Of a stretch of DNA of 64,000 nucleotides, positions 6,672 to 21,729 are shown in pieces (positions within the stretch are counted from its first letter, which is position 1; each line of letters opens with the position of its first letter). Both the position numbers and the translations under genes were made by a program. Below the pieces are notes generated by a model that was not told the DNA's origin, ran no database searches, and saw only the letters and a program-made list of their open reading frames with translations. The stretch comes from Euzebyales bacterium (GTDB lineage Bacteria; Actinomycetota; Nitriliruptoria; Euzebyales; JAHELV01), in the NCBI GenBank assembly GCA_036374135.1, contig DASUUK010000003.1, positions 1-64,000 of the forward strand. Direction: 5' to 3'.

Positions 6672-6794
6672 ATGACCACGACGGCACGGGGGGTGGTGGC
6701 GCGGACCGAGGGTGAGCCCGTCACCGTCGAGGAGGTCATCGTGCCCGATTCCGGGTCGGGGGAGGCACTCGTCCGCTCGGTGGTGGTCTGGTGA
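6672..6794 (+). pseudogene. mscR: mscR remnant: S-(hydroxymethyl)mycothiol dehydrogenase reduced to its two ends
   Basis: A 40-codon frame with a good AGGAGG ribosome site. The first 33 residues (MTTTARGVVARTEGEP, then TVEEVIVPDSGSGEALVR) match the N terminus of the zinc- and NAD-dependent mycothiol-linked formaldehyde dehydrogenase. The last residues, LVRSVVVW, match its extreme C terminus (family ending LRSVVxx). About 320 middle residues, including the zinc and nucleotide-binding parts, are absent. The junction falls where both ends carry a GE-x-L-R-like sequence, as expected of an in-frame deletion between short similar sequences. The stop overlaps the GTG of the MBL gene (GTGA at 6791-6794), so coupling to the partner gene is preserved. 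An assembly collapse is the alternative. Confidence 0.7.
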
Positions 6795-7408
6795 CGGTCG
6801 AGCACCTCACGACCGACGGCGAGTTCACCCTCGACGGGCAGTCGTTCCACGTGACCAACAACGTCTGGCTCGTCGGCGACGACGACGAGGTCATCGTCAT
6901 CGACGCCGCGCACGATGCCGCGAGGATCTCGGAGGCGGTCGGTGGACGACGCGTGCCGATGATCGTGTGCACCCACGGCCACAACGATCACATCAACGCG
7001 GCGGTCGACGTCGCCGATCTGGTGGGTGCGCCGATCGCGCTGCATCCCAACGACCGCATGCTCTGGGACGCCGTGCACCCGCACAGGGCGCCCGATCTCG
7101 ACCTCGCCGACGGTCAGGTCATCTCGGTCGGCGGCACCCATCTGACGGTGCTGCACACGCCCGGCCACTCGCCCGGATCGGTGTGCCTGCACGGCGACGG
7201 GATCCTGTTCTCGGGGGACACCCTGTTCCAGGGTGGACCCGGCGCCACGGGGCGCTCCTACTCGGACTTCGACACGATCATCGCCTCGATCCGCGACCGC
7301 CTGCTCACGCTGCCGCAGGACACGGTGGTCCACACGGGCCACGGCGACAGGACGACGATCGGTGAGGAGTCCGGCTCACTGCCGGAGTGGATCGAGCGCG
7401 GTCACTGA
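6791..7408 (+). CDS. MBL-fold hydrolase, usual partner of mycothiol-dependent formaldehyde dehydrogenase
   Basis: 205 aa from a GTG overlapping the remnant's stop. Zinc motifs of the metallo-beta-lactamase fold are complete: THGHNDH near residue 58, HTPGHSPGS near 120, GDTLFQGGPGATGRSYSDF near 140, and a final HTGHGD near 183. In mycobacteria and other actinobacteria this subfamily follows mscR and is thought to act on the S-formylmycothiol product or a related thioester. Here the dehydrogenase is gone, so the enzyme is stranded or serves another glyoxalase-II-like reaction. Confidence 0.85.
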   Translation: MTVEHLTTDGEFTLDGQSFHVTNNVWLVGDDDEVIVIDAAHDAARISEAVGGRRVPMIVCTHGHNDHINAAVDVADLVGAPIALHPNDRMLWDAVHPHRAPDLDLADGQVISVGGTHLTVLHTPGHSPGSVCLHGDGILFSGDTLFQGGPGATGRSYSDFDTIIASIRDRLLTLPQDTVVHTGHGDRTTIGEESGSLPEWIERGH

Positions 7409-7509: not shown

Positions 7510-8127
7510 CTATCGGCGCTCTCTGAACATCAGGGCGATGCGGGGACCGGCGGAGGCGACCTTGGGCACGGCGTGCTCGCAGGTGCGTTGGCACGACCCG
7601 CCCATGACGAGCAGGTCGCCGCGTCCGACCGACCACGACAGGCTGGACCCGCCACCGCGCGGGCGGATGCGGAACGGGCGCGGCTCGCCCAGTGAGACGA
7701 TCGCCACGGTCGCCTGTGGCAGGTCGCGGACGATCCGGTCGCCGTGCCAGGTCACGCTGTCACGACCGTCGCGGTACAGGTTGCAGCTGATGCGGTCGAG
7801 TCGGACGCCGTAGCGGGCACTGAGCGCATCCGACAGCTCGCCGACGAGATCGAGCCCATCGGGCAGCGATCCCCGGTCGACGGTCGCGACCAGGCGCGGC
7901 CGCGGGACGTCCATGCCGCGGATGCGTTCGGTCCCGCTGTGCCACGGCAGGTGGCGCTCCGCCGCCGTGTACAGCCGGTCGGCACCGCGCACCCATCCCG
8001 GCAGCCGGTCGACCCACGCCCCGTCGTGCAGGTGGTACCGGCGCATGCCTGCGAAGTCGGCCGCGAAGGTCGGCGCGTCGTCAACCGTGTCGAGCAGCGA
8101 TCCCTGGAACGTCAAGGTGTCGGTCAT
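7510..8127 (-). CDS. AlkB-like 2-oxoglutarate/Fe(II) dioxygenase (DNA alkylation repair)
   Basis: 205 aa, ATG at 8125-8127. The facial triad is visible: WHGD gives His128 and Asp130, and EHAVPK gives His185. The Arg for 2-oxoglutarate is in GPRIALMF (Arg196). The nucleotide-recognition lid precedes it (CNLYRDGRDSVTWH), as in AlkB family proteins that reverse N-alkyl lesions in DNA or RNA. There is no Shine-Dalgarno; a TAGAGT -10 element ends 7 nt before the ATG, so the transcript is probably leaderless. A perfect LexA box abuts that element, so the gene is expected to be SOS-induced. Confidence 0.85.
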   Translation of the reverse strand: MTDTLTFQGSLLDTVDDAPTFAADFAGMRRYHLHDGAWVDRLPGWVRGADRLYTAAERHLPWHSGTERIRGMDVPRPRLVATVDRGSLPDGLDLVGELSDALSARYGVRLDRISCNLYRDGRDSVTWHGDRIVRDLPQATVAIVSLGEPRPFRIRPRGGGSSLSWSVGRGDLLVMGGSCQRTCEHAVPKVASAGPRIALMFRERR

Positions 8128-8134
8128 GCCGACC

Positions 8135-8140
8135 ACTCTA
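8135..8140 (-). promoter_or_regulatory. -10 element of leaderless alkB-like promoter
   Basis: On the minus strand TAGAGT (TANNNT) is separated from the ATG at 8127 by 7 nt, the arrangement typical of leaderless actinobacterial transcripts. The LexA box lies 1 nt further upstream, covering the -35 zone. Confidence 0.5.
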
Positions 8141-8141
8141 G

Positions 8142-8157
8142 TCGAACGCATGTTCGA
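8142..8157. promoter_or_regulatory. LexA (SOS) box, perfect palindrome
   Basis: TCGAACGCATGTTCGA is an exact TCGAAC-N4-GTTCGA site, the SOS box of actinobacterial LexA. It lies in the 60-bp gap between the divergent alkB-like and VOC genes and covers the -35 zone of both putative promoters, so LexA could repress both. Confidence 0.8.
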
Positions 8158-8172
8158 TGATCAACGTCCATC

Positions 8173-8178
8173 TAGACT
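8173..8178 (+). promoter_or_regulatory. Putative -10 element for VOC gene
   Basis: TAGACT lies 9 nt before the ATG at 8188, with no ribosome site between. Its -35 zone falls inside the LexA box. Confidence 0.35.
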
Positions 8179-8187
8179 GCGACGCGC

Positions 8188-8826
8188 ATGCTGGCCATCG
8201 ACCACGCGATCATCGCGGTGAACGACCCGGCGTCGTGGGCCGCGCGCGTGCGCGCCCGCGCCGGTCTGACGGCGGTTCCGGGTGGCCGGCACGTGGGCAC
8301 CGGCACGGGCAACTGGATCGTGCCGCTCGGGGACGCGTACCTCGAGCTGATGACCGTGGTGGACGATGCGGAAGCGCAGGACAGCCCGCTGGGTCGGTGG
8401 GTGATCGAACAGACCCGCCACGGGGACCGGCTCGCGGCCCTGTGCCTGCGCACCGACGCGATCGACGAGATCGCCGATCGACTCGGTCTCACACCGGAAG
8501 CGATGGCGCGACGCACCGAGGACGACGTCGAGCTGCGGTGGCGCCTGGTCGGCCTCGACGCCGCGCTGTCCGGCCACCAGCTGCCGTTCTTCATCCAGTG
8601 GGACACCGACGATGGTCGGCACCCCGGCCGGATGCCGGCCGAGCACGTCAACGCGCCGAGCGGCATCCCGTGGATCGAGTTCGGCGGCGATCAGCAACGG
8701 CTCGCGCGCTGGCTGGGCGAGCACGCGCTGCCGATCCGGTGCGTCGAGGAGCCGCCGGGACCGCGTACGGTGGCCGTGGCCACCGCGCAGCGGTTGGTCC
8801 GCATCACGACCACGGGCATCACCTGA
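8188..8826 (+). CDS. Glyoxalase-like (VOC) domain protein, 212 aa
   Basis: Begins MLAIDHAIIAVNDPASWAAR, the first strand-helix unit of the vicinal-oxygen-chelate fold with His6. It continues with GTGTGNWIVPLGDAYLELM, where the first paired metal Glu would lie. The second half (SGHQLPFFIQWDTDD, HPGRMPAEHVN) matches the glyoxalase-like group of single long-chain VOC proteins. Substrate unknown. It is divergent from the alkB-like gene, with only 60 bp and a LexA box between, so shared damage control is plausible though not typical for this family. Confidence 0.75.
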   Translation: MLAIDHAIIAVNDPASWAARVRARAGLTAVPGGRHVGTGTGNWIVPLGDAYLELMTVVDDAEAQDSPLGRWVIEQTRHGDRLAALCLRTDAIDEIADRLGLTPEAMARRTEDDVELRWRLVGLDAALSGHQLPFFIQWDTDDGRHPGRMPAEHVNAPSGIPWIEFGGDQQRLARWLGEHALPIRCVEEPPGPRTVAVATAQRLVRITTTGIT

Positions 8827-21249: not shown

Positions 21250-21265
21250 TCGAACACACATTCGA
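21250..21265. promoter_or_regulatory. Near-perfect LexA (SOS) box
   Basis: TCGAACACACATTCGA differs from TCGAAC-N4-GTTCGA at one base. It lies 17 nt before the ATG of the 148-residue unknown gene and just after a TATCCT -10-like hexamer at 21238-21243. Confidence 0.6.
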
Positions 21266-21282: not shown

Positions 21283-21729
21283 ATGCACGTCCTGATGACA
21301 CCGATCACCGGATCCGCCAGGGCCGCCACGGAGGGTGCGCCACTCGACGGTGAACTGGCCGTGCTGCCGGTCGCAGCGACCGACGTGGGCGATGTCGGCG
21401 TCTTCCGCAACCGGTCGCGCCAGTTCGTCGGTCTGGACAGCCACGCCGACGCCTGCATCGTCGAGGTGGCCGAGCTCGATGTGTGCCCCGACGTGGTGCT
21501 GGCCCACATCCAGGAGTCAGCCGCGCGTCACGGACCACGTGACGAGCACCTGCTCGTGGCGCTGGCGGCGCAGATGACGGCGGAGATGCTGCACGTCGCG
21601 GAGCAGTTCCCGATCGGCACGATCCTCCATCGCGACGGCGACCTGGTGCGCGCGATCGTGCCGTTCCCTGACAGCCCCGGCCGGCGTCCGGTGTGCAGTC
21701 CAGGCAACGGCGGCCGTGGCCCGTGGTGA
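21283..21729 (+). CDS. Hypothetical protein, 148 aa, probable SOS gene
   Basis: The ATG at 21283 follows GGGAGG by 8 nt; an in-frame ATG at 21265 is rejected because it lies in the LexA box. The sequence starts MHVLMTPITGSARAATEG, has a beta-rich middle (DGELAVLPVAATDVGDVGVF) and a helix around residues 70-100 (VVLAHIQESAARHGPRDEHL, then LAAQMTAEML). No known domain, signal peptide or membrane span was recognised. One Cys pair region (ADACIVEVAELDVCPD) might bind metal. The upstream box suggests LexA repression. Confidence 0.65.
   Translation: MHVLMTPITGSARAATEGAPLDGELAVLPVAATDVGDVGVFRNRSRQFVGLDSHADACIVEVAELDVCPDVVLAHIQESAARHGPRDEHLLVALAAQMTAEMLHVAEQFPIGTILHRDGDLVRAIVPFPDSPGRRPVCSPGNGGRGPW

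Follow-up and report, generated by a model that had tools for sequence, protein, structure and literature searches.

Whether a single LexA operator can serve two genes transcribed away from each other, one for an AlkB-like dioxygenase and the other for a VOC-fold protein, is the question raised by this Euzebyales locus. The locus was analysed within the whole 64-kb stretch of DNA, referred to here as the window, in which it comprises the following features:

7510..8127, minus strand: alkB-like Fe(II)/2-oxoglutarate dioxygenase gene (205 aa), assigned by a Pfam 2OG-FeII_Oxy_2 match, an ALKBH3 match and motifs
8135..8140, minus strand: predicted alkB -10 element TAGAGT, separated from the box by 1 nt and from the ATG by 7 nt, with TANNNT at the same spot in 4/4 species of the genus
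8142..8157, no strand assigned: putative LexA operator (SOS box) TCGAACGCATGTTCGA, a perfect palindromic match kept in 4/4 species of the genus
8173..8178, plus strand: predicted VOC -10 element TAGACT, separated from the box by 15 nt and from the ATG by 9 nt, with TANNNT at a distance of 14-15 nt to the box in 4/4 species of the genus
8188..8826, plus strand: VOC-fold (Glyoxalase_3) gene (212 aa), assigned by a Pfam match and a structure model

The boundaries of the intergenic stretch proposed in the original prediction, 8128-8187, proved correct, with alkB starting at 8127 on the minus strand and the VOC gene at 8188 on the plus strand, and the 16-mer put forward as a perfect LexA box between the divergent genes was found at 8142-8157 exactly as written. 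Both of the predicted TANNNT elements, TAGAGT and TAGACT, are also present at 7 and 9 nt from their respective ATGs, and the box overlaps both predicted promoters. The proposal that it lies over both -35 zones held for the VOC promoter, where a 17-nt spacer puts the hexamer at 8150-8155, but failed for alkB. Here the box occupies the promoter spacer, ending 1 nt upstream of the -10 element, and a -35 element would fall at the far edge of the box. An upstream in-frame alkB ATG at 8151 sits within the box; conservation of the protein with three relatives starts at the 8127 start. From the conserved spacing between -10 element and start codon, leaderless promoters are plausible for both genes.

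The alkB product matched the Pfam family 2OG-FeII_Oxy_2 (PF13532) above the cut-off (E = 7.4e-12), and its best match in the PDB was human ALKBH3 (E = 1.9e-9). The motifs WHGD, HAVPK and RIALMFR provide HxD...H and RxxxxxR patterns, which we take to be the iron triad and the 2-oxoglutarate motif, respectively. Convergent to alkB lies a metallo-beta-lactamase-fold gene (window 6791-7408) with weak similarity to glyoxalase II, and a counterpart was seen beside alkB in one of three relatives within the flanks examined. The VOC product matched Glyoxalase_3 (PF13468) with an E-value of 3e-36 and 125.6 bits against a cut-off of 25.1, and its AlphaFold model (pLDDT 93.5) aligned with 3p8a, an uncharacterised Staphylococcus protein, over 202 residues with a Z score of 18.0 and an rmsd of 2.9 Å. 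Solved structures added nothing on the function of the VOC product, the sequence match being an uncharacterised protein and the best fold match the same entry, 3p8a.

The operator sequence is rare. TCGAAC-N4-GTTCGA (TCGAACNNNNGTTCGA) has one perfect match within the window, that at 8142-8157, where dinucleotide shuffles gave a mean of 0.01. Markov models of the window put the rate of perfect boxes at about 0.33 per Mb, and the genome (3.98 Mb, 115 contigs) holds them in five places. An RNA element was rejected, since no Rfam family reached its gathering threshold anywhere in the window.

The layout is kept within the genus. The comparison covered all four genomes of the family, which belong to one genus and, by common ancestry, are not independent. 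In each of them alkB and the VOC gene are adjacent and divergent, and a box with no or one mismatch is always found at -30 from the alkB start. The alkB side reads box, 1 nt, TANNNT, 7 nt, ATG in all four; on the VOC side, TANNNT stands 14-15 nt from the box and 7 to 11 nt before the start codon, again in 4/4 genomes. Mean pairwise identity is 0.89 at the 12 consensus positions of the box, 0.38 at its four central bases and 0.48 over the first 14 nt of the spacer between the box and the VOC -10 element.

The genome also encodes the circuit into which such an operator would fit. Its LexA (domain E = 1.0e-26) keeps the catalytic Ser and Lys and the Ala-Gly cleavage site, and three one-mismatch boxes lie upstream of the lexA start. 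RecA is encoded as well, with matches in three pieces (L022, L020 and L021) of one uninterrupted 1159-aa frame (G000:C103:18135-21293, minus strand); this split suggests two inteins, and the first recA match is preceded by a two-mismatch box. The four further perfect boxes are located at imuA', which stands upstream of a Y-family polymerase gene, at dnaE2, at an Rv2578c-like radical SAM gene and at a dienelactone-hydrolase-type gene, the first three of these four being SOS-type genes. The dnaE2 arrangement of box, 1 nt, TAGACT, 8 nt and ATG is nearly the same as that of alkB. Based on these perfect boxes and the dnaE2 layout, the palindrome fits the operator used by the SOS genes of this genome.

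Several side observations concern the same set of boxes. The best match of the radical SAM gene (L004, 3-1556, minus strand) was the intein-containing Rv2578c family model, below cut-off. The perfect box at the dienelactone-hydrolase-type gene (L001, 1389) overlaps its possible start, and we know of no SOS member of such a kind. A one-mismatch box, TCGAACACACATTCGA, occupies window positions 21250-21265. The 17 nt that separate it from an ATG at 21283 include a GGGAGG stretch, and the gene behind this ATG matches DUF7715. On contig C66 (L005), an identical box precedes a gene for an HNH endonuclease. Divergent from lexA is a gene (L023, 305-901, minus strand) that looks like a LysM-type membrane protein, as do SOS division inhibitors of the YneA kind. 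An Ada-type zinc-binding domain is encoded elsewhere, on contig C64, so that position does not indicate Ada control of alkB.

We then consider how far the association of box and alkB extends. In a phylum sample of 396 genomes, alkB was detected at E ≤ 1e-25 in 67, which together with two from a search of the order gave 69 loci. With alkB starts extrapolated from the alignment and possibly off in some loci, a box with up to two mismatches was present between -70 and +20 at 50 of the 69, where their own flanks would predict 1.96, and one with up to one mismatch at 34 against 0.12 expected; many of these loci come from related species and do not represent 69 independent events. A wider zone of -150 to +20 gave a box at 53/69 loci, 25/38 genera and 12/16 families, the genus and family counts including one box at -119 in family f2 that is probably due to chance and without which the families number 11. 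Among the 53 loci, the gap between the box and a following TANNNT is 0-1 nt in 25 cases and 7-9 nt in 17, where a locus may count twice. Row L060 of alignment A2, taken from the wrong strand, was excluded. Within the same order, family f3 has a one-mismatch box just upstream of alkB in all four loci, while none of the five alkB loci of family f2 has one near the start (the weak match at -119 being the only one), and none was found at the five loci of family f6. LexA control of alkB is therefore not universal. The original prediction had considered SOS control of alkB sensible but not the common arrangement; for this phylum the latter view is wrong, given the 50 loci with a box and two published species. 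For the AlkB-like gene itself, SOS control has good support: the box is perfect and conserved, and the genome has a LexA circuit of its own.

Specifically, alkB of Streptomyces venezuelae (vnz_32390) is reported as a LexA ChIP-seq target that mitomycin C induces 11-fold, with tCGAAC-N4-GNNCGa as the LexA consensus of that species (PMC9380542). A LexA-regulated alkB would be common to both organisms, although the box printed for S. venezuelae alkB is atypical (PMC9380542), whereas the Euzebyales box is a perfect palindrome and is common to a divergent VOC gene. In Mycobacterium tuberculosis, alkB, imuA', imuB, dnaE2, a DNA repair photolyase, HNH endonucleases and lexA are described as RecA-dependent, and the putative AlkB Rv1000c is placed among the SOS-box-regulated genes (PMC8151990). 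The Euzebyales boxes at imuA', dnaE2, alkB, the Rv2578c-family radical SAM gene and the HNH gene resemble this regulon; unlike at the Euzebyales locus, no VOC gene is named in the passages on the M. tuberculosis regulon (PMC8151990). The open-access literature likewise yielded no VOC or glyoxalase gene under LexA, and the breadth of actinobacterial alkB SOS control seen here was not met in the literature searched. SOS control of alkB in actinobacteria is already published; of the two genes, only the VOC gene would be a new SOS member, and a plausible one. Divergent LexA promoters are themselves familiar: the divergent SOS pair uvrA-ssb is under LexA in Escherichia coli, and Tapias and Barbe (1999) reportedly described the pair in Sinorhizobium meliloti. 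The genes there are different ones, and both partners belong to repair or replication.

The VOC gene has a much narrower distribution. At E ≤ 1e-15 it was detected in 4/66 genomes of the class, all of one genus, and relatives at E ≤ 1e-10 in 61/396 genomes of the phylum sample. We examined 31 loci outside the genus, comprising 26 loci from 26 non-genus genomes, out of 57 in which a match had been detected, and five from a further collection of genome contigs; some may be near-duplicates (L126/L128 and possibly L125/L046). A box with up to two mismatches within 250 nt upstream was found at none of the 31, so that SOS control of the VOC gene across the phylum was rejected, and alkB was detected beside none of them within the fetched flanks. 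The box at orthologous VOC promoters thus stands at 4/4 in the genus and 0/31 elsewhere. From this difference, box and alkB probably form the older association, with the VOC gene brought within reach of the box by its position in this genus. Pairing in one genus, together with boxless relatives outside it, argues that the box likely belongs to alkB first; co-repression of the VOC gene is likely from the geometry.

We propose, with reasonable though far from complete confidence, that one LexA operator governs the divergent alkB/VOC promoter pair. Control of the alkB arm by LexA is very probable, and this arm resembles an ordinary part of the SOS regulon of actinobacteria; for the VOC arm, the geometry kept in all four species of the genus makes LexA control somewhat favoured. 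That the operator might instead serve alkB alone, leaving the neighbouring VOC promoter weakly or not repressed, we regard as rather unlikely. Such a reading would agree with the phylum-wide association of box and alkB, with the confinement of the VOC gene to one genus of its class and with the boxless relatives elsewhere. However, all four species keep a -10-like element at a distance of 14-15 nt to the box despite a diverged spacer, and this spacing puts the VOC -35 region within the box, where LexA would be expected to keep polymerase out. A chance origin of the palindrome, or its use by another regulator, is very improbable: weak matches are indeed common in the genome (14 with up to two mismatches in the window, against 3.2 expected), but a perfect intergenic match with so low an expectation is kept in the genus and agrees with the boxes that this genome carries at lexA, imuA' and dnaE2.

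Under the shared-operator model, a LexA dimer would occupy 8142-8157 in the undamaged cell and block RNA polymerase at both promoters, lying between -35 and -10 at alkB and over the -35 at the VOC gene. Upon damage, RecA-stimulated self-cleavage of LexA would free both promoters. AlkB would then demethylate alkylated bases, and the probable target of the VOC-fold protein would be a small reactive molecule or a compound that causes damage. AlkB has been reported to release glyoxal from etheno adducts. More speculatively, and on present evidence doubtful, the SOS response of this genus may have recruited the VOC-fold enzyme as the partner of AlkB in a two-gene damage module, in which it would remove an alkylation-linked toxic small molecule (e.g. 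glyoxal) or bind a DNA-damaging compound.

Overall, these results suggest that alkB is broadly under LexA control in the phylum and that such control is not an oddity of this locus. Given the broad occurrence of alkB boxes, oxidative demethylation in actinobacteria is probably under the control of the SOS response and not of Ada alone. If the VOC arm holds true, a small-molecule enzyme would join the SOS output of one genus, providing a testable partner for AlkB.
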